Assembly: GCA_021734075.1 (NCBI GenBank)
Contig: JAIPJW010000017.1
Span: 1 to 38,386 of the forward strand
Origin: Cephaloticoccus sp.
GTDB taxonomy: Bacteria > Verrucomicrobiota > Verrucomicrobiia > Opitutales > Opitutaceae
Direction of reading: 5' to 3'
Length of the DNA stretch: 38,386 nt
Every line of letters begins with the position of its first letter. Within the stretch, counting starts at the first letter, position 1. Made by a program: the position numbers and the translations under genes. Positions 6,691 to 16,016 of this stretch are shown here, piece by piece. The notes under the pieces were generated by a model that was not told the origin of the DNA, ran no database searches, and saw nothing but the letters and a program-made list of their open reading frames with translations.

Positions 6691-7344
6691 TTATTGAGGT
6701 TCGCCTGTCTTGGTGGGTGGTGGAGAAAAGGCAGAGTCCGTTTCATTGATCACGGCGTCACTCACGACTTGGTTGATGAAACGGACATCGAGCCGCATGG
6801 AGACCACCTCCGGGGCCTCATTTTGAAACCTACGGGAGTTGCGATTGTTGTAAGTCCGGGTTTCCTGGGCATTGAGCAGGGCCTCGGACCCCTGGTGCGA
6901 CTTGGCATAGTCCTGCCAAGTTTCCCCGGGTTGTTTACGGTCTTGGTCGGGTTTGGACAACTGATCAAACTTGGACTGGTTGTTGAGAAACATCTCAATC
7001 GCCTCCTGAATCGGGTCGAGTTCCGGGATGTAGTAGAGCGACTCGGAGTTGACGGCGGGCGACGGGTAAAAATTCCGGTAGATCCAGACAAAACTCCGGC
7101 CATCCGCTGCGGTTTCAACCTCGTCGGGTCGACCCAGTGCCAGAAAAACCATGGCCGGGGTAAACCCCTTGGCGATGGAACCACGCGACACCTCCTGTTG
7201 CACGGCAGGCGTCAGTTGGGCAAAGGTTTCCGGGTGCGCGGCAATGCGGCTGGCCTGCGGAGTGGTTCCGCAACCACCCGCGAAAAAGGCAAGACAGAGC
7301 ATGCTCCCCCCGAGGGTGCATTTGAGATCCGGTTTAATCTTCAT
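6691..7344 (-). CDS. Putative outer-membrane-type lipoprotein
   Basis: A 217-residue protein starting with a lipoprotein signal peptide: positive start, hydrophobic LCLAFFAGG and a Cys at residue 25 (AGGC). It would be lipid-anchored in the cell envelope. A segment near residues 60-95 (SIAKGFTPAMVFLALGRPDEV, then FVWIYRNF) resembles the strand-helix pattern of small SmpA/BamE-like or similar envelope lipoproteins, but I do not claim that family. The C-terminal half is polar and rich in Gln, Asn and Ser. Its ATG overlaps the stop codon of the upstream exported protein (ATGA, 7341-7344), which implies translational coupling. The PDZ-like gene follows after 10 bases. Function unknown. Confidence 0.65.
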   Translation of the reverse strand: MKIKPDLKCTLGGSMLCLAFFAGGCGTTPQASRIAAHPETFAQLTPAVQQEVSRGSIAKGFTPAMVFLALGRPDEVETAADGRSFVWIYRNFYPSPAVNSESLYYIPELDPIQEAIEMFLNNQSKFDQLSKPDQDRKQPGETWQDYAKSHQGSEALLNAQETRTYNNRNSRRFQNEAPEVVSMRLDVRFINQVVSDAVINETDSAFSPPPTKTGEPQ

Positions 7345-9254
7345 GGTTTTGATGAGTGGAGCGTTTCCATCAGACGACCCAGTTTGTCCCGTTCAGTTTG
7401 ATCGGTGAGCCAACGCATGCCCAGTGTGCCGAGCCGCTCGGCTGATTTCACGTCACCCTGCGCGGTCTGCAGGAGCACGGCCGCATAGATGATACGAAAC
7501 TGTTCCGGGAAGCGGCGGGCGCCTTCATCCAGCAACGCCACCTGGGCTGCGGTGAGTCGCGCCATTTTACGCAACCACAATTCAAGGAGGAGCTTGTAAG
7601 CCTGAGCCAACGCAGGTTTTTGTCCCAACCCGGTCGTCAACTGTTGGGCGATGTCATCCAGCTCCGAACCCACGGTTTTCAAGTCTGGGTCCTTTTCCCG
7701 CAGGCGGACCATTTCAATGCGTGACAACTCGTAATAGGCTCGAGGATGCACCACTTTCCCTTGCACGGCAGCCACAAGCAGGGGCAGGGCAGTGGCATCA
7801 TTGCCGGCATCCACCTCGGCCAAGCCCAACTCGGCCAACTGCACAGGATCACTCTGGGCTGACTCAACCGCTCGCCGGTGATTGCGCCGGGCCTGTTCAA
7901 GATAGGAAGACAACACTTCAGGATAGTGCTGTCGCACGTAGCGGATGCTGAGGCGATTGAGCCGCCCCTTCAATCTGGCCAACTCTGCTGGGGTGGCATC
8001 ATGCAGGGGCAGTTCGTTCAGTGGGTGCACCATTTCATCGGAACCAATGCGGAACTCGCCCCGACCGAGGCAGGCATAGGGCAGATAAAAGCGCAGCATC
8101 ACATCCACTTCTGCTGGAGACCAAGCGAAGCACTCCACAAACAGTTTATCCGAAAATCCCTCCTGCGTCACCCGATCCAGAAAGCGCCACAATGCCTCGG
8201 CATCCGGTTTTCCCCCCGGCCGTAGAATCTGATCCGGATCCGGCATCACGGGGTGTGGATCTAAAATCCAGCGCAAAAACAATGCGCTCTGGAGTGTGGC
8301 CAGGGTTTGTTCCTCCCCGGTGAAGGCAGTGAAGGTCCGGGGGTTCAGCAACTTTTCCAGGGGCGTGAGGGCAAACGAATCGGGGAGCAAGGGGCGCCCC
8401 GAAATTCGGGCCTCCCGCTTGACCATGGCAATGATCTCGTCCGTCGACTTCTTGTTTCCCCAGACAAAGGGCAACACCGTCACTTCGTCATAAGGGTGCT
8501 TGGGATCCAGAAAGATGCGTGGGTCTGAAGCAAAGGTGATCTGGCGCGTGGCTGGGGGCACCGGCAGCATCAGCGTATCCTGCAATTGCAGCAAGCCGTC
8601 GATGAACCAGGAGGGTAGCGGAGGGTGGTTGGAATCGAGCAGAAAGCCCAAGTAGGAGGCTGACAGCGTGATCACATTCGAGGTCTGGACATACGGATCC
8701 AGCACCATGTAGAGCAGTTCGGTGTCATCATCCCGAAAATTGAAATTGGGCATGAAGCGGACGGCAGTATCCCCCGTGACATTCGTGATGCGTAGCTTCA
8801 ACGTAGCGGTCAACTCCTGCACCACCAGAGGCTCTGTCACGGCATCCTCAATGATCAAGGTGGTGGGCACGTCGTAAGAGGGGCGAAAGCGGGGGGGCAG
8901 GATGAAATCCAGCATGTGCATCAGTCGCTGATACCGGTCCACGACTGCCACGGTGATGTCATCCGGGGTGCGGGCCAATGCCTCGATGGCGCCAATCCTA
9001 GCATAGCGCCATGATTTGCCGCGATCAACTTCCACTTCGTAAGGTGGCAGCGTTATGATCTCAGCCTCCTGGCTCACGGGATTTACGTCCGGCGTGGAAG
9101 GTCGGGCTGGTTGGTCCGTGATCATGGCCAGCGAATGCCCAGTAAACCCAACGGGCAACACCCTGGAACCGGATGGTGACGCGTGGGCCCGGGTTTGGGG
9201 TAAACCGCAGAGGACCAATCCCAGAAGTATCTGAATGCTCAGATGCATTGCCAT
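7341..9254 (-). CDS. Large exported protein, possibly a degenerate peptidase MA-like protein
   Basis: A 637-residue protein with a cleavable signal peptide (LSIQILLGLVLCGLPQTRAHA). A central stretch, LPSWFIDGLLQL near residues 217-228, resembles the PxWxxEGL segment that follows the zinc site in peptidase MA-like gluzincins. The HExxH motif expected before it is absent; the matching place reads ITLSASYLGFLL, so if the relationship is real the protein has lost its zinc site. The C-terminal third is helical and could hold TPR-like repeats (AELGLAEVDAGNDATALPLL and the following helices). ATG codons at 9254 and 9248 are both possible starts. It heads a minus-strand operon and overlaps the lipoprotein gene by four bases. 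The function is unknown; an envelope role for the whole operon is inferred from the three export signals. Confidence 0.6.
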   Translation of the reverse strand: MAMHLSIQILLGLVLCGLPQTRAHASPSGSRVLPVGFTGHSLAMITDQPARPSTPDVNPVSQEAEIITLPPYEVEVDRGKSWRYARIGAIEALARTPDDITVAVVDRYQRLMHMLDFILPPRFRPSYDVPTTLIIEDAVTEPLVVQELTATLKLRITNVTGDTAVRFMPNFNFRDDDTELLYMVLDPYVQTSNVITLSASYLGFLLDSNHPPLPSWFIDGLLQLQDTLMLPVPPATRQITFASDPRIFLDPKHPYDEVTVLPFVWGNKKSTDEIIAMVKREARISGRPLLPDSFALTPLEKLLNPRTFTAFTGEEQTLATLQSALFLRWILDPHPVMPDPDQILRPGGKPDAEALWRFLDRVTQEGFSDKLFVECFAWSPAEVDVMLRFYLPYACLGRGEFRIGSDEMVHPLNELPLHDATPAELARLKGRLNRLSIRYVRQHYPEVLSSYLEQARRNHRRAVESAQSDPVQLAELGLAEVDAGNDATALPLLVAAVQGKVVHPRAYYELSRIEMVRLREKDPDLKTVGSELDDIAQQLTTGLGQKPALAQAYKLLLELWLRKMARLTAAQVALLDEGARRFPEQFRIIYAAVLLQTAQGDVKSAERLGTLGMRWLTDQTERDKLGRLMETLHSSKP

Positions 9255-9467
9255 GAATGTATTGTGCGTGACCTCAACTGATAGGGTGCACGAGTGAGTT
9301 TCGTGGTATGAAAATAATATATTCGGAATTACACAATCCAGTTACGGTTGATAGTAGTCTGGATGTTACTTCCTGTCACAGGGCCTACAAAGTTCATTGG
9401 TGCTGTCCGGAATAAAAGTGGAGTTTGGGTGGTGGTTTGACCGCCCGTAGGTTTGGGATGGACGCGG

Positions 9468-9487
9468 CCGTGGCAGATCCGCCACGG
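9468..9487 (+). promoter_or_regulatory. Stem-loop just upstream of rlmM-like gene
   Basis: CCGTGGC at 9468-9474 and GCCACGG at 9481-9487 form a perfect seven-base stem with a six-base loop, ending seven bases before the ATG at 9495. It sits where a ribosome would bind, so it could reduce translation of the gene. No function is proven. Confidence 0.35.
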
Positions 9488-9494
9488 TCGTTGG

Positions 9495-10499
9495 ATGTTG
9501 ATCACCTGCCAGGCCGGTTTTGAAACCATGCTCGCCCGCGAACTGGTAGTGGGTGGGGCGGTTCCCTCCGCGCAGGGTCCCGGCTGGGTATTGGCGGAGG
9601 GAGCCCCGGTGGAATTGGCCTTCGCCCATCTGGTGTTGCATGGGACCACTGAGGTGCGCGGCGAATCGGTCAATGCGCTGGCGCAACAGGTGGCGGATGT
9701 CTTTCTCAAGGGCATTCAGGGTCAGCGAATTGACGCGCCCTGGCCCTTGGTCTTTGCCGGGCCGGCGGAGCTGGTCGGCCTGGGTCGTCGGGTCGGTGCC
9801 GTGGAAAAAACCGTGCATGAATTGTTGCGGAAGCGGTTCTCCCGCGTCGCCAAACTGGCCGTGGCCGATGTGCCCCGGGGGGTGGGCGAGGCCACCGGCC
9901 TGTTCGTGTGGTTTACCGATTTCGGCTGCGCGCAGGTGGCCCGCCGGGCCTCGATCAATGGCCAGCGGCGCATGGCGGACGATGCCCAGGCGCCGTCGCG
10001 CAGTTATCTGAAGGTCGAGGAAGGTTACGTGGTGCTGGGACAGGAGCCGGCAGCCGGTGAAACCGTGGTGGACCTCGGTGCGGCCCCGGGCGGCTGGAGC
10101 TACAGTGCGGCCCGGCATGGTGCCCGGGTGCTCGCCCTCGACAATGGTCCGCTCAAGGGCGGGGCGTTGGATCACCCCCTGATCGAGCACCGGCATTTGG
10201 ACGCCTTTGGCTTTACCCCCACCGCGGGCACTACCTACGACTGGTTGTTTTGTGATCTGGTGGAAGAGCCACATCACGTGTTGCGGCACCTGATCGAGCC
10301 GTGGCTGGCGAACGGGTGGTGCCGGCAGTTTGTGGTGAATCTAAAATTTGGTCGCGTGGACGCGTTGGCCCTGTTGCAGGAACTGCGGGCGGCGGATTCA
10401 CCGCTCAGGCGCTTTGCGCCCGGAACGCGCATCCGGCACCTCTATCATGACCGCGAGGAATTCACCCTCGTAGGTAAAGTGATAACGTCGTCGGGCTGA
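9495..10499 (+). CDS. rlmM: RlmM-like 23S rRNA 2'-O-methyltransferase
   Basis: A 334-residue protein with an N-terminal THUMP-like region and a C-terminal FtsJ-type Rossmann methyltransferase. The N-terminus (LITCQAGFETMLARELV) matches the start of RlmM, which methylates cytidine 2498 of 23S rRNA in Escherichia coli. The SAM-binding motif VDLGAAPGGWS is near residue 190. Lys in SYLKVEE, Asp in FCDLVEEP, Lys in VVNLKFGR and a C-terminal Glu fit the K-D-K-E set of 2'-O-methyltransferases. The E. coli enzyme has 366 residues, so this one is slightly short. The ATG at 9495 was preferred to an upstream TTG at 9453 because the family motif begins there. It stands alone, divergent from the exported-protein operon. 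Confidence 0.75.
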   Translation: MLITCQAGFETMLARELVVGGAVPSAQGPGWVLAEGAPVELAFAHLVLHGTTEVRGESVNALAQQVADVFLKGIQGQRIDAPWPLVFAGPAELVGLGRRVGAVEKTVHELLRKRFSRVAKLAVADVPRGVGEATGLFVWFTDFGCAQVARRASINGQRRMADDAQAPSRSYLKVEEGYVVLGQEPAAGETVVDLGAAPGGWSYSAARHGARVLALDNGPLKGGALDHPLIEHRHLDAFGFTPTAGTTYDWLFCDLVEEPHHVLRHLIEPWLANGWCRQFVVNLKFGRVDALALLQELRAADSPLRRFAPGTRIRHLYHDREEFTLVGKVITSSG

Positions 10500-10568: not shown

Positions 10569-11099
10569 ATGAATCCTAAATTGCTGCGTTTGGTGTTGTT
10601 GCTTCTCTGTGTGCCGTTGGCGGCTGTAGCCGCCGGCCCGGAGTTTTCCGGTCACTGGCGACTGGATACCGCCCGTAGTTCAGCCCTTGACGGGTGGAAT
10701 GCCATGGATCTGGTCATCGCCCGGCAAGGCACCCAAGTGCTGCTCACCCACCGCATGGAATGGCGCACCACAACCTTTACCGCGACCAACACCTATGACA
10801 CGGCCCGTGCAGTCGACCAGCAGGATTACTTCCGGGTCGAACAGCGGCACATGGCGGTTTACCCCGCCAAGGGCGGTCAGACGCACTCCACCGCCACTTG
10901 GATCGACGGTGGCGCCACGTTGCGTTTGGAAGTCGAAACACCGGTGGAGGTTTCACAGGGCAATGTCACCATGCGCATCTACAGCGAATACCGCGTCGAT
11001 GAAAGCGGCCAAAATCTCACGCTGATCGAATTGCACTCCAGTCGTGATCGCCCGCTGGTTTATGTGTTCCACCGAATTTCCGGGGAGGAAAAATCATGA
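10569..11099 (+). CDS. Small secreted protein of the GxGYxYP module, copy A
   Basis: A 176-residue protein with a signal peptide (LLRLVLLLLCVPLAAVAA). The mature part begins FSGHWRLDTARSS, the strand pattern seen at the start of small lipocalin-like or similar beta-barrel domains, and continues with alternating strands (MDLVIARQG, THRMEWR, FRVEQRHMAVYPAKGG, LTLIELHSSRDRPLVY). I know no assigned function. It overlaps the GxGYxYP gene by four bases (ATGA, 11096-11099), and the same pair recurs directly downstream at 12926-15123. That conserved pairing suggests the two products act together in the periplasm or outside the cell, perhaps on a glycan or its products. The two copies are identical at well over half of aligned positions by eye. 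Confidence 0.7.
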   Translation: MNPKLLRLVLLLLCVPLAAVAAGPEFSGHWRLDTARSSALDGWNAMDLVIARQGTQVLLTHRMEWRTTTFTATNTYDTARAVDQQDYFRVEQRHMAVYPAKGGQTHSTATWIDGGATLRLEVETPVEVSQGNVTMRIYSEYRVDESGQNLTLIELHSSRDRPLVYVFHRISGEEKS

Positions 11100-12766
11100 A
11101 ATTCCAACATCTTATTTTCCGCCTGCTGGCAGTCCTTGCCGGTGGATTTTCCGCCCAGACCCAAGCAGCTTCCCAGCCAGCTGATCCGGCCAATGACGGG
11201 CGGGAAGCATGGGTCATGCATTTCGACAGCGACTGGCGGATTGACGGCACCCTGCCCGAGAAGGCGATGTTGATCGGCCTGCAGGGGCTGGCCAATCGCA
11301 CGGCTCCGCAGCTCTATCTCATCCACGCGGCCGATTATCCGTGGGAGATCACCGGCCCGTTGGCCGATTTTTACACGCGCAAGCACGGCGTGAAATTCAC
11401 CGAGATCCAGACGGCCGACGAGGCGCTGGAATTGTTTGGGTCCTGCGCCAAGGGGTATGTCGTTTGGGATCCGGCCGTGATGCCGACGATGAACGTGGCT
11501 TACACCATTGCCGGTTTGGAGGATGGGGTAATTGTCACCCCGGCGCTGATCCCGATGGTGGTGAAGCACGGCCTGAAACAGATCGATGACCTGCGGGGCC
11601 GTTACACCGGCATGACCGATGCGCAAATTTACGCCGAGGCCAAGGCGCGCTACTGGTCGCGCTGCAACCACGACATGCTGATGCTCATGGGCGGGCATTC
11701 CGGCGACATCCGGATTCCCGGCATGGCCGACTGGGGCGTGCGCCAGCGGATGTTTTTCCACGACCTTTCGGCCAATCCGGAACATCCCGATGAAGTGGCG
11801 CTGGAAAAGGAGTTTTTCTCCGAGATGAATCCGGGGGCATTTGTCTTTGGCTGGCACTCCTATGCGAAGGACACCGAGGAGCAACACACCACGCTCACCT
11901 CGACCTATGGGCTCCGGATGGACGGCCTGCAGAGCCTGCCAAATCACAGCTTCAACTGCCAGTTCACCTTCACCCCGGGCTTCAAGTTCACCAACCAGCA
12001 CCACGTGAAGCCGGACACGCCACTCATCGCGGACAAGAAGGTCTACCTCGCCTTCGTGCAGTCGGACGGCATTGGCCTCGGGGTGTGGACCAAACCGGGC
12101 CGGGGACGACTGGAATTGTCGTGGGGCGCGATTCCCAGCTGGCTGGAGTTTGCGCCGGCGGCCCTGGAATATTTTCACGAGTCGGCCACGCCGGCGGATT
12201 ACTTCATCGGCGGGCTTTCCGGCCCCTCCTACATGTATCCCAACCATATCCCGGCGGACCGGTTCGCCGGACTCATGCAGGAAGCCGTCCGACAGATGGA
12301 GGTGCTCGACGAGAATGTCTTTGAGATTCTCGACAACTCGGCGGCCGACGGCAACGTGGGCAACGCCGACCTGACCCAGGAAACAGTCGATCGTTACTAC
12401 GAGGCTTTCCCGAATGTGATCGGGTTCATCAACGGTTACGGCCCGGCCCGGACGCGCGACCTGCGGAACGGTGTTCCGATGATTTCCTACGACTACTACA
12501 TCGATCCGAGGCGTCCCCGCGAGGAGGTGACGGCGGATTTGAACGAACTGATGTCGCTCAATGCCAAGCGGCCGTATTTCCTGCTGGTGCATGTGCGTGA
12601 AACCAACGATGTGAACAGTCTGGTGGAGGTGATCAAAAATCTGGCAGGTCCCGTCGAGGTCGTGCCGGTGGACACATTCATGAAACTGGCCGCGAGCAAA
12701 CCGACTTTTCTGAAACGCTACCAGGATCCCGAGGATCCGAAAAAATTCGAAGGTTACAGCCGATGA
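11096..12766 (+). CDS. GxGYxYP family protein, copy A (motif Gly changed to Ser)
   Basis: A 556-residue exported protein (signal peptide LIFRLLAVLAGGFSAQTQAA) of the GxGYxYP family, described as a putative glycoside hydrolase family with an N-terminal and a C-terminal domain. The domain order fits: LPEKAMLIGLQGLANRTAPQ near residues 52-71 in the N-terminal part, VYLAFVQSDGIGLGVW at the start of the C-terminal part, then the signature. In this copy the signature reads GPSYMYP, with Ser378 in place of the second Gly; copy B keeps Gly. Conserved acids and histidines such as HESATP and NGYGPAR are present in both. It is translationally coupled to the small protein before it, with a strong GGAGG ribosome site inside that gene. 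Enzymatic activity is not established for the family. Confidence 0.8.
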   Translation: MKFQHLIFRLLAVLAGGFSAQTQAASQPADPANDGREAWVMHFDSDWRIDGTLPEKAMLIGLQGLANRTAPQLYLIHAADYPWEITGPLADFYTRKHGVKFTEIQTADEALELFGSCAKGYVVWDPAVMPTMNVAYTIAGLEDGVIVTPALIPMVVKHGLKQIDDLRGRYTGMTDAQIYAEAKARYWSRCNHDMLMLMGGHSGDIRIPGMADWGVRQRMFFHDLSANPEHPDEVALEKEFFSEMNPGAFVFGWHSYAKDTEEQHTTLTSTYGLRMDGLQSLPNHSFNCQFTFTPGFKFTNQHHVKPDTPLIADKKVYLAFVQSDGIGLGVWTKPGRGRLELSWGAIPSWLEFAPAALEYFHESATPADYFIGGLSGPSYMYPNHIPADRFAGLMQEAVRQMEVLDENVFEILDNSAADGNVGNADLTQETVDRYYEAFPNVIGFINGYGPARTRDLRNGVPMISYDYYIDPRRPREEVTADLNELMSLNAKRPYFLLVHVRETNDVNSLVEVIKNLAGPVEVVPVDTFMKLAASKPTFLKRYQDPEDPKKFEGYSR

Positions 12767-12925
12767 TGGTTCTGGCCAACGCCGGCTGCCTCCGGGCGTC
12801 ATTGTCGTGACAACCGGACATTTCCCGTGGCGGGCTGAAATCCGATCAATGAATAATTGACTGAAAATCGAGGAAACGCGTGGACACGGCGAAGCTGTCG
12901 CCGGATATTACCTCCTGATTTTTCC

Positions 12926-13465
12926 ATGAAACTGACCGCAACAAAATTAACTCTTCTCGCAGGTCTTTTGACCTTGGGGACACTGACCCCCGCAGCAGCA
13001 AATCCTGAACTGTCCGGCCGCTGGCGAATGGATCCGGCCCTGAGCTCGGCGCTCGATGGCTGGAACATGATGGACCTGGTCATTGCCCAGGAGGGCTCGC
13101 AGATCCAGATCACGCACGAAATGCAATGGCGCGCCACGAAATACAAGGCCACCAATGTGGTGGATACCACCAAGGAGGTGGCTTCGGACAGGTTCTTCCG
13201 GATCGAGCAACGCCACATGGCGGTTTACCCGGCCAAGGGTGGCGTGACTCACTCCGTGGCCGAATGGATCGATGGGGACCGGACGCTGCGCACCGAAAGC
13301 ATGACCCCGGTCGAGGTTTCCCAGGGCGACGTGATGATGCGCATCACCAGCGAATATCGCATTGGGGAAGGTCGTGAAACCCTCACCCTGATCGAACTGC
13401 ATTCCAGCCGGCACCGACCGCTGGTCTATTATTTCCGCAGGGTGAAGGAGGAGGCGGCCAAATGA
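12926..13465 (+). CDS. Small secreted protein of the GxGYxYP module, copy B
   Basis: A 179-residue paralog of the protein at 10569-11099. It has a signal peptide (LTLLAGLLTLGTLTPAAA) and a mature part starting ELSGRWRMDPALSSALDGWN. The stretches EQRHMAVYPAKGG, TPVEVSQG and LTLIELHSSR are the same in both copies, while the signal peptides and some middle strands have diverged. The ATG at 12926 was selected because it places the signal peptide at the start; the frame is open to 12857. Its end overlaps the start of GxGYxYP copy B by four bases, exactly as in copy A. The 159-base gap before it holds no gene and may contain a separate promoter or simply be the duplication joint. Function unknown. 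Confidence 0.72.
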   Translation: MKLTATKLTLLAGLLTLGTLTPAAANPELSGRWRMDPALSSALDGWNMMDLVIAQEGSQIQITHEMQWRATKYKATNVVDTTKEVASDRFFRIEQRHMAVYPAKGGVTHSVAEWIDGDRTLRTESMTPVEVSQGDVMMRITSEYRIGEGRETLTLIELHSSRHRPLVYYFRRVKEEAAK

Positions 13466-15123
13466 ATATTTTCAAACGAATCACCGTGCTTTGCAGCCTG
13501 TTGGGCTTGCTGACCGCGCCTCTGACCCGGGCCGCGGATCAGCCGCGAGGCCTGAATGACGGCACCAATGCCTGGGTCATGAATTTTGACCTCGATTGGC
13601 GCAAGGACAGCGGACTGCCCGAAAAGGCCATGTTGATCAGCCTCCAAGGCTTGGCCAATCGCACGGCACCCCGGCTCTACATCGTGCACCCGCCGGAATT
13701 TCAATGGGAGATCACGGGACCGTTGTTCGAGTTCTACCAGCGCAAGCATTACATCAATTTCACCGAGGTGAAAACCGCCGATGAAGCGCTGGCCTTGTTT
13801 TCGCAATACACCAAGGGCTATGTGATCTGGGACAAGGCGGTCGGAGCCTCGCTCAATGTGGCCTTTACGATCGCCGGGTTGCAGGATGCCGTCGTCGTTT
13901 CCGAGGAATTGATCCCCCTGGTGGAAAAACACGGACTGAAGCAGCTCGACGACTTGCGCGGACGCTACACGGGCAAGAGCGACGCCGAGATCTATCAGGA
14001 CGCCTACGACAAGTATTGGGCGCAGTGCACGCACGAATCGGTCATGCTGATGGGCGGGCACCGCGGGGCGGTGATGATGCCGGGCATGGCTGACTGGGGC
14101 GTGCGCCAAAAGATGTTTTTCCACGATCTCTCGGCCAACCCGGAGCATCCGGCCGAACTCGCCCTGGAGAAGAAAATCTTTTCCGAACTCACTCCGGGCT
14201 CGATTGTTTTCGGCTGGCACCCCTACGGCAAGGACACCGAGGAACAGCATACCACCCTGCTCTCCAGTTACGGCCTCAAGATGGAGGGTCTGCACAATCT
14301 GCCCAACCTGAGCTACAACTGCCAGTTCACCTTCACCCCCGGTTTCAAGTTCACCAACAATCACCGGGTGGCGCGGGATGCCCAGCTCACAGCCGAGCCC
14401 AAGGTCTACCTTGCCTTTGTGCAATCGGACTCGATCGGCATCGGCGTGTGGACCAAGCCGGGGCGGGGCAAGCTGCCCTTCGGCTGGCAGGTGACGATGA
14501 ACTGGTCGAAGTTTTCCCCGGCGGCACTGGAGTATTTCCATGAATCGGCCACGCCGAACGATTACTTCATCGGCGGGCTTTCCGGTCCGGGCTATATGTA
14601 TCCCAATCACATCCCGGCGGACCGCTTCCCCCTGCTGATGGCGGAAGCGAATGAAATGATGAACCTGCTCGACGAGCGTATCATGGAGATCATGGACAAT
14701 TCCGCGGCCGACGGCAACGTGGGCAACACGGACCTGACCAAGGAAACGGTCGATCGTTACTACGAGGCCTTTCCCGACGTAATCGGTTTCATCAACGGTT
14801 ATGGACCGGCCCGCACTCGCGATTTGCGCGACACCCGGCCGATGATATCCTATGATTACTACATCGACCCGCGCCGGCCGCGGGATGCGGTGGCGGACGA
14901 TTTGAACGAGCTCATTTCACTCAACGCCAAGCGGCCCTATTTCCTGCTGGTGCATGTGCGTGAATCCAATGATGTGAACAGCCTGGTGGAGGTGACCAAA
15001 CAACTGGAGGGTCCGGTTGAGATCGTGCCCATCGATGTGTTCCTCAAGCTGGCGGCCAGCAACAAGACCTACACCACGCGATATCAGGACCCGGACGAAC
15101 CCAAGCACTTCGAAGGCTTCTGA
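13462..15123 (+). CDS. GxGYxYP family protein, copy B (intact signature)
   Basis: A 553-residue exported protein, paralogous to 11096-12766 over its whole length. The signal peptide spans about residues 8-25 (LCSLLGLLTAPLTRAA). The eponymous motif is intact as GPGYMYP at residues 375-381. Other shared blocks include MLISLQGLANRTAPRLYIVH, FFHDLSANPEHP, FVQSDSIGIGVW and YYEAFPDVIGFINGYGPARTR. The family is a putative glycoside hydrolase group, often exported, in Bacteroidota and Verrucomicrobiota; its substrate is not known to me. A strong GGAGGAGG ribosome site lies in the upstream gene just before the ATG. A rho-independent terminator begins 18 bases after the stop, so it closes the duplicated module. 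Confidence 0.82.
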   Translation: MNIFKRITVLCSLLGLLTAPLTRAADQPRGLNDGTNAWVMNFDLDWRKDSGLPEKAMLISLQGLANRTAPRLYIVHPPEFQWEITGPLFEFYQRKHYINFTEVKTADEALALFSQYTKGYVIWDKAVGASLNVAFTIAGLQDAVVVSEELIPLVEKHGLKQLDDLRGRYTGKSDAEIYQDAYDKYWAQCTHESVMLMGGHRGAVMMPGMADWGVRQKMFFHDLSANPEHPAELALEKKIFSELTPGSIVFGWHPYGKDTEEQHTTLLSSYGLKMEGLHNLPNLSYNCQFTFTPGFKFTNNHRVARDAQLTAEPKVYLAFVQSDSIGIGVWTKPGRGKLPFGWQVTMNWSKFSPAALEYFHESATPNDYFIGGLSGPGYMYPNHIPADRFPLLMAEANEMMNLLDERIMEIMDNSAADGNVGNTDLTKETVDRYYEAFPDVIGFINGYGPARTRDLRDTRPMISYDYYIDPRRPRDAVADDLNELISLNAKRPYFLLVHVRESNDVNSLVEVTKQLEGPVEIVPIDVFLKLAASNKTYTTRYQDPDEPKHFEGF

Positions 15124-15212: not shown

Positions 15213-16016
15213 GTGGGGAAAGCAGATGTTTTCCAAGCTGGCGTGACCGCAGTTATTCGGCTCGGCTGGGCTGCGTTGAAGACCAAGGAACTTACCATCT
15301 GTGGATTGGCAGCGGTGCGGGCACGCTTTCATGGCGACCCGGGCTCGATCCTGCGGCTGTTTTTCGACCAGCCCACCGGGAAAAAAATCGGTCCCCTGTG
15401 CAAGGCCCTTGCGGCGACCCGCAAGGTCTATCGCTGCGTGGAGCCGGCGGAATTGGCGAAGATTTCCGGTTCAATTCATCACGGTGGCATCGTCGCGGTG
15501 GTGGTGGCGCCGTCCTTGCGCCGTCCCGGTCCGGCCGAGATAAAACTTTGGGCGGCCCGCCGACAGCCGTTGCTGATCCTCGATCGGGTGGGCAATGCGC
15601 ACAATCTCGGGGCCCTGGTGCGCACGGCAGCCTATTTGGGTGTCAACCAGATCGTGTTGGCGGATGCGCCGGAATCGGCCCGGCCCAACGACGCGGCGTA
15701 TCGGGTCGCGGAAGGGGGAATGGAGCAGGTGACGGTTTGGATCGCCCGGGACTTGCCGGGATTGATCGGGGCCTTGCGCACGGCCGGTTATGCCGTGCTG
15801 GCCGCCGCCACCCGGTGGGGCAGCCCGCGGGGTGCAGAGGATGCCAAATCGGCCATTGCACTGGTGCTGGGCAACGAGGAGCAAGGCATCGCGCCCAAGG
15901 TCGCGGCTGCCTGCTCGCGGCAAGTCACGATCCCGGGCACGGGCGCGGTCGAATCGCTCAATGTTTCCGTCGCCGGGGCTATCCTGATGTGGGAATGCTT
16001 CGGAGTGAAGCGCTAG
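15213..16016 (+). CDS. TrmH/SpoU family RNA 2'-O-methyltransferase
   Basis: A 267-residue SPOUT-class methyltransferase that would methylate a ribose in tRNA or rRNA. The three family motifs are clear: NAHNLGALVRTA near residue 130, VLGNEEQGI and IPGTGAVESLNVSVA near the C-terminus, which form the knotted SAM site. An N-terminal region with ICGLAAVRARF and the following strands corresponds to the substrate-binding domain of RlmB-like members. The GTG at 15213 is supported by an AGGAAGGGG ribosome site nine bases upstream; a TTG at 15276 would start nearer to the conserved ICGLAAV. Which RNA position it modifies cannot be told. It is convergent with the methyltransferase at 16013-16849; their stop codons overlap in a single CTAG. 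Confidence 0.85.
   Translation: MGKADVFQAGVTAVIRLGWAALKTKELTICGLAAVRARFHGDPGSILRLFFDQPTGKKIGPLCKALAATRKVYRCVEPAELAKISGSIHHGGIVAVVVAPSLRRPGPAEIKLWAARRQPLLILDRVGNAHNLGALVRTAAYLGVNQIVLADAPESARPNDAAYRVAEGGMEQVTVWIARDLPGLIGALRTAGYAVLAAATRWGSPRGAEDAKSAIALVLGNEEQGIAPKVAAACSRQVTIPGTGAVESLNVSVAGAILMWECFGVKR

Follow-up and report, generated by a model that had tools for sequence, protein, structure and literature searches.

What might two adjacent genes, one encoding a small protein with a signal-like N-terminus and the other a protein of the GxGYxYP family, be kept together for, and why does such a pair occur twice in succession in a Cephaloticoccus sp. (Verrucomicrobiota; Opitutales; Opitutaceae)? 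The window, the whole stretch of 38,386 nucleotides (nt) that was analysed (contig JAIPJW010000017.1), carries two consecutive units, A and B, as the initial annotation had recognised, and in each unit the stop of the small gene and the start of the large gene overlap by ATGA; equally, the signatures GPSYMYP (Ser378) and GPGYMYP (Gly377) are present, with residue numbering in agreement. The answer favoured here, which is considered reasonably probable from sequence comparison, is that each unit encodes an obligate, secreted, glycan-active complex of a barrel resembling calycins and fatty acid-binding proteins (FABP) with a GxGYxYP protein, A and B being long-separated versions of it. The features of the two units are listed below, with residues of the large proteins related to those of BT2193, the GxGYxYP protein of structure 3sgg; signal sequences were judged by eye throughout.

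10569..11099, + strand: small (barrel) protein A, 176 aa, signal-like N-terminus; a row of the 49-row barrel alignment A1
11096..12766, + strand: GxGYxYP protein A, 556 aa, signature GPSYMYP (residues 376-382); Pfam domains PF16216, PF20957, PF20958 and PF14323
11096..11099, + strand: stop/start overlap ATGA of unit A
11870..11878, + strand: copy A Asp259 (invariant in the subfamily described below) to Glu261 (equivalent to BT2193 Glu272)
12065..12067, + strand: copy A Asp324 (equivalent to BT2193 Asp331); equivalents of Asp333 and Asn334 absent
12227..12229, + strand: copy A Ser378, signature residue 3
12926..13465, + strand: small (barrel) protein B, 179 aa; predicted ten-stranded calycin/FABP-like barrel over residues 23-178
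13462..15123, + strand: GxGYxYP protein B, 553 aa, signature GPGYMYP (residues 375-381); model matching 3sgg (BT2193) with Z 34.3
13462..13465, + strand: stop/start overlap ATGA of unit B
14233..14241, + strand: copy B Asp258 (subfamily-invariant) to Glu260 (equivalent to Glu272)
14428..14430, + strand: copy B Asp323 (equivalent to Asp331)
14590..14592, + strand: copy B Gly377, signature residue 3

The listed open reading frame of small protein B opens at a TTG at 12857, and the ATG at 12926, which provides a normal signal-like start, was chosen. Between units A and B the small proteins are 65% identical over 153 residues and the large proteins 70% over 552 columns, and a chance origin of the paired units is excluded because of this homology. 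All four GxGYxYP Pfam domains score above the curated cut-off in both large proteins (E down to 2.9e-60); no Pfam family matched either small protein of the window, and an NCBIfam scan of all four window proteins gave no match.

What, then, is the small protein? Modelling of small protein B with AlphaFold2 on an alignment of 51 rows resulted in ten antiparallel strands at a mean predicted local distance difference test (pLDDT) of 90.5 and a predicted template modelling score of 0.86, and the matches recovered by Foldseek and VIA-align 2 are the barrels of SAHS, a group 13 allergen, FABP5 and myelin P2, the top VIA rows having Z of about 14 and root mean square deviations of 2.0-2.4 over 114-120 residues (Z 14.0 over 120 and 114 residues for the best two). 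The small protein is accordingly a confident structural prediction as a calycin/FABP-like ten-stranded barrel. G31, W33, Q133 and R162 are invariant in 49 diverse barrel members, and a G-x-W in the first strand together with a late Arg is a calycin hallmark. Among the members scanned no significant sequence match to a PDB chain or a Pfam lipocalin family was observed, as the 49 members gave one weak match to VDE lipocalin (E 0.014), with unrelated families matching other members at similar or better E, and the barrel profile reached a single FABP in the PDB at E 1.2. The loops at the barrel end of Gln133 and Arg162 are the more conserved ones, with 3.26 versus 2.60 bits in alignment A2 (26 of 5000 shuffles as large) and 2.35 versus 1.93 bits in A1 (149 of 5000), where loops are assigned to barrel ends by strand order and the shuffles ignore the dependence of neighbouring residues; we infer that this conserved end would be a ligand mouth or a docking face.

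Whether the barrel belongs to the GxGYxYP protein has been addressed by separate whole-genome searches for the barrel and for the C-terminal domain GxGYxYP_C in three overlapping genome samples, all from the phylum of the window (family, 120 genomes; order Opitutales, 273; phylum, 288), with plasmids searched in addition. In the order sample the barrel occurs in 26 and GxGYxYP_C in 31 of the 273 genomes; 56 of the 58 barrel matches have GxGYxYP_C downstream or within the same gene, and 56 of the 63 GxGYxYP_C matches have a barrel upstream. The two remaining barrel matches both derive from the genome of the window, a draft of 3.5 Mb in 212 contigs, where the partner gene of one (C114) runs off the contig ahead of the C-domain and the other (C202) lies itself at a contig end, so that a barrel without an adjacent GxGYxYP gene was not found in the order sample apart from contig-end cases. 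The seven GxGYxYP_C matches without a barrel comprise one contig-edge fragment (G533) and six divergent proteins (in G096, G463, G490 and G567). In the phylum sample all 13 genomes of 288 with a barrel have GxGYxYP_C, and 15 more have GxGYxYP_C with the barrel undetected; in the family sample GxGYxYP is present in 51 of the 120 genomes and the barrel in 47, the four others having only partial matches (G087, G111) or divergent ones (G011, G096). When the 202 profile matches are collapsed to 134 distinct GxGYxYP genes, a barrel gene is directly upstream of 114, 15 are fused to it and five start at or near a contig edge. The split pairs are separated by a median gap of 3 nt under mechanical start choice, with a 4-base overlap in 32 of the 114, so the exact overlap of the window units is not universal. 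The linkage spans five families of the order (f1, f4, f63, f65, f68), and the named records with relatives of copy B (52 loci) are assigned to Opitutaceae, Opitutales, Opitutae, Verrucomicrobia or to genera such as Opitutus, Cephaloticoccus and Lacunisphaera. A control search with PF14323 matched 0 of 14 well-known genomes, and a tblastn search with the barrel P0003 against plasmids gave no match.

Further copies are present in the genome of the window, namely the C114 barrel with a truncated GxGYxYP gene, a truncated fusion (C120) and the C202 barrel fragment (G000:C202:2-274), which is cut by the contig end and has its GxGYxYP partner presumably on an unjoined contig. Elsewhere in the phylum, the barrel-less GxGYxYP proteins L219, L222 and L223 begin instead with about 240 residues that resemble one another by eye and give no match to the barrel profile.

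Some Opitutales encode both pieces as a single polypeptide, barrel first and without a linker. Eighteen natural in-frame fusion genes with this order have been identified, 15 among the 134 genes plus L216, L276 and L278. At each of the 15 junctions inspected the final strand of the barrel continues directly into the opening strand of the GxGYxYP part; by eye, 12 of these 15 fusions possess a single hydrophobic signal-like N-terminus, two (L003, L172) are contig-cut and one (L155) has none that is clear. The split genes of the window meet at the border where the fusions are joined, and the product of the second gene begins with a signal-like sequence of its own. All phylogenies were inferred with FastTree, and that of the GxGYxYP protein comprises 131 subfamily and 13 outgroup proteins. 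On this tree the fused versus split state requires one change, the fused clade (16 rows, support 100) being nested among split lineages, and a single fusion would therefore explain the pattern most simply; support for the position of the fused clade is weak in part (65 and 24). Each of the four GxGYxYP clades tested reappears in the barrel tree (support 96-100), and within clades the distances of barrel and GxGYxYP protein correlate at 0.68-0.94, a level reached by none of 2000 permutations for each clade. The partnership of small protein and GxGYxYP protein, which had been proposed initially and would have been contradicted by mostly unlinked homologs, is thus borne out by 56 of 58 linked matches, the 18 natural fusions and the same main clades in both trees. 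Barrel and GxGYxYP protein very probably work as one unit, and that the separately secreted chains assemble in the manner of the fusions can be regarded as highly likely on comparative grounds.

Equally informative is the large protein. The copy B model (pLDDT 86.6) aligns with 3sgg over 464 residues and reproduces its three-repeat N-domain and seven-stranded beta/alpha barrel. Its lower-confidence blocks include the first 20 residues (61-69), the region around and after Asp323 (67-73), model residues 171-180 (60) and the C-terminus; as weak evidence, these segments would fit ordering by the small barrel. No clear homology was described for the GxGYxYP N-domain by Rigden et al. 2014 (PMC4071793). 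The N-domain of copy B (13546-14280, model residues 1-245) resembles SlpA H/L and Cwp8 chains of C. difficile with middling Z of 8.7-9.1; the rows listed have root mean square deviations of 4.4-4.9 over 214-225 residues. These chains contain CWB2 repeats, which bind cell-wall polymer.

In BT2193, Glu272, Asp331 and Asp333 have been proposed as catalytic, with Asn334 nearby, by Rigden et al. 2014 (PMC4071793), who describe the three as highly conserved, not invariant. Residues were counted after dropping genes with fewer than 470 domain residues, which kept 130 of the 134 genes and, with L216 added, gave 131 subfamily members, 128 of them with the barrel in view and three (L073, L091, L103) starting at or near contig edges; L233 and L235 (no profile match) and L285 (cut short, with an in-frame stop and no readable loop) stand outside these counts. 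Equivalents of Glu272 and Asp331 are present in 131/131 members and of Tyr394 in 130/131, but position 333 is Ile, Met, Leu or Val and position 334 is Gly in all 131, both window copies included, so that the full Glu272/Asp331/Asp333 triad is found neither in the subfamily nor in either copy. The loop after Asp331 is shorter in the barrel-partnered subfamily, and all 131 members carry an Asp two residues ahead of the Glu272 equivalent. Nine more barrel-partnered rows show the same acidic pattern, one of which (L279) is the same gene as L100. In contrast, Asp333 is kept in all 19 barrel-less proteins examined (13 outside the order, six inside) and none has the Asp two before Glu272, the alignment of the divergent barrel-less proteins being less sure near Glu272 than near Asp331. 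As far as the sequences tell, the telling difference is the missing Asp333/Asn334 common to both copies, more than the Ser/Gly change between them.

Which process might the pair serve? Among the 97 loci with enough flank, the neighbours, with families assigned from one scanned representative per cluster, include two heparinase II/III-like clusters (16 and nine loci), periplasmic-binding-protein-like domains (12), TonB receptors (11 and four), SSF symporters (11), S9 peptidases (11) and a sulfatase (four). With such carbohydrate and transport neighbours elsewhere, the cassette in general may plausibly handle glycans. The window units themselves are flanked as follows.

9453..10499, + strand: FtsJ-like methyltransferase, 5' flank, common to many clade-1 loci
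15213..16016, + strand: SpoU/TrmH-type RNA methyltransferase, 3' flank, common to many clade-1 loci

The FtsJ-like and SpoU-type flanks recur in many relatives and mark a shared location outside polysaccharide-utilisation loci (PUL). Further upstream, a protein of 637 aa is encoded on the reverse strand (7341-9254); its N-terminus is signal-like, and it matches no Pfam family at E 1e-5.

The mechanism can be sketched with decreasing confidence. Each pair would encode an exported calycin/FABP-like barrel and a GxGYxYP protein as a two-subunit protein. The cleft between the two GxGYxYP domains may be where this complex acts on a glycan, and the conserved barrel end would help to hold the ligand, a proposal about which doubt slightly prevails. 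More tentative is a surviving hydrolysis in which, in copy B numbering, Glu260, Asp323 and Asp258 would replace the Glu272/Asp331/Asp333 set. Similarly speculative is a two-subunit enzyme class in which Asp333 of the C-domain loop has been replaced by the N-domain Asp two before the general acid Glu272, the barrel orders or closes the cleft and the genes have been joined or parted at the domain border. The alternative that survives best, itself rather doubtful, considers the GxGYxYP protein a pseudoenzyme that has lost catalysis, such that the complex only binds glycan for capture, sensing or envelope anchoring. The uniform replacement of residues 333 and 334, the shortened loop after Asp331 and the resemblance of the N-domain repeats to S-layer and Cwp8 chains would suit it. 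On the other hand, the universal Glu272 and Asp331 equivalents together with the invariant additional Asp suggest a rebuilt rather than a dead site, and pairwise ratios of nonsynonymous to synonymous divergence (dN/dS) within each type are low (0.04-0.13).

The reading as a glycan-active two-subunit complex has to face a number of observations that weigh against it. The absence of Asp333 and Asn334 means that catalysis may be lost, and the glycoside hydrolase assignment of the GxGYxYP family is itself a prediction (PMC4071793). BT2193 has an Asp one and three residues before Glu272, and the 'new' Asp of the subfamily may therefore be an old one in a shifted alignment. The barrel-partnered proteins form one clade (support 99), so that the joint occurrence of barrel and altered site is a single evolutionary event and has no independent statistical weight. 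None of the Asp/Glu columns of the 49-row A1 is invariant, the highest reaching 86%, and the barrel was therefore set aside as an unlikely source of the missing acid. The small partners of A-type copies do not follow the large ones neatly, with small protein A of the window pairing with that of G039 and that of G115 placed elsewhere on the small-protein tree. Mutual information between the partners (125 pairs, effective 77) is ambiguous, the 50th-ranked inter-protein score lying slightly above all 30 within-clade shuffles and the top score inside the shuffle range. Finally, RNA methyltransferase genes, and not a PUL, surround the unit of the window; carbohydrate-active plus transport neighbours were not found among the five neighbours scanned, two of which had no match.

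If the barrel is indeed tied to the GxGYxYP protein, it might alternatively be a dedicated chaperone, inhibitor or pro-domain that holds its partner inactive or folded until export, in analogy to secreted beta-barrel inhibitors that act so on co-encoded proteases. The upstream position of the barrel gene in split pairs, with the 4-base overlap in 32 of 114, and the faster evolution of the barrel (mean within-clade distance 0.42 versus 0.24 for the large partner in clade 1) would be compatible with such a role, but the 18 in-frame fusions, linkerless at 15 junctions, are more in keeping with a stable domain than with an inhibitor that dissociates, and this alternative is judged improbable.

Returning to the complex in its two versions, do A and B differ in kind? 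It had been suggested that the copies arose by tandem duplication and, from the Ser/Gly change, that their functions may have split or that copy A may be binding-only. The copies are adjacent as described, yet they are not sisters on the protein tree. Copy A clusters with the first tandem copies of G115 and G039 (support 100) within a group of seven members (support 91) whose signature residue 3 is Ser or, once, Ala, and copy B with L066 (support 97) and then L067-L069 (support 92); A precedes B side by side in three genomes, those of the window, G115 and G039, and dS between A and B is 1.12. In 30 of 177 fetched records, several of which overlap, relatives of both flanking RNA methyltransferases enclose one unit, and in G115 and G039 they enclose two. 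This shared locus with one or two units points to an ancient tandem duplication followed by differential loss, with transfer as a possible alternative origin of the arrangement.

A functional split with a binding-only A is equally improbable as the chaperone role. It could draw on the raw cross-tabulation, in which a signature Ser goes with Gly after Asp331 (A-type, 9/131) and a signature Gly with Ser or Ala (111/131), on the maintenance of both types in three genomes and on the slightly higher dN/dS of A-type copies (three A-type pairs give 0.11-0.13 and three B-type pairs 0.04-0.09; pairwise NG86 estimates with some dS near saturation, up to 2.6). On the tree, however, the swap amounts to four changes at each site with about three of four independent pairs in the same direction (p 0.25), and a coupled exchange of signature residue 3 and the residue after Asp331 is only suggestive. 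A and B are, by these estimates, both constrained by purifying selection, A slightly less. BT2193 itself reads GSSYIFP and has Ser as signature residue 3, in a motif that is nearly all buried (PMC4071793). The Ser-type is the sole clade-1 copy in G107, G085 and G015, and the Ala-type in G094; the acidic positions are identical in Ser- and Gly-type copies, and non-Gly at signature position 3 needs four changes on the tree. The Ser/Gly change as the mark of a dead copy was rejected on these grounds, and a binding-only copy A is not supported by it; A and B are probably long-separated versions that differ in fine specificity rather than one being dead. Least probable is mere co-transcription of unrelated secreted proteins. 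Bacterial neighbours may stay together by descent, and the two-subunit association is deduced here from genes, but linkage in five families of the order, fusions and the lack of an unlinked barrel except at contig ends speak against such a historical accident.

How does the subfamily with its putative two-subunit complex relate to known systems? With BT2193 it shares the four Pfam domains, the fold, the Glu272, Asp331 and Tyr394 equivalents and, in the Ser-type, the signature residue; it differs by the barrel partner wherever upstream DNA is seen, the absent Asp333/Asn334, the shorter loop after Asp331, the invariant Asp two before Glu272 and, at the window, a location outside a PUL. The small protein resembles FABP/lipocalin-like calycin barrels such as SAHS and group 13 allergens in its ten modelled antiparallel strands, the strand-1 G-x-W and Z of 14, and differs in that it is bacterial, has a signal-like N-terminus and occurs only with GxGYxYP in the samples searched. 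GxGYxYP proteins fused to CBM6, CBM32, ricin-type and PA14 domains, described in PMC4071793, are similarly accompanied by an accessory domain, which is here a calycin-like barrel and usually a separate gene. The same source reports the family as over-represented in gut metagenomes. In the open-licence literature searched, no activity of the GxGYxYP family was found demonstrated, and no paper that connects lipocalin-like proteins with glycoside hydrolases in Verrucomicrobia was found; BT2193 is listed as a hypothetical protein in a table of an iron-response transcriptome, and BT3859 figures as a primer name in another paper.

The units belong to a GxGYxYP subfamily whose calycin-like barrel subunit is apparently obligate and whose acidic site is altered. 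An obligate partner, if true, would be a concrete reason why single-chain assays of the subfamily might fail, and it names the pair to co-express. Equally, as barrel-partnered and barrel-less members differ naturally in their acidic residues, comparing them offers a test of the proposed triad. The analysis furthermore adds a predicted secreted calycin-like barrel family without a Pfam entry, and with one apparent partner.

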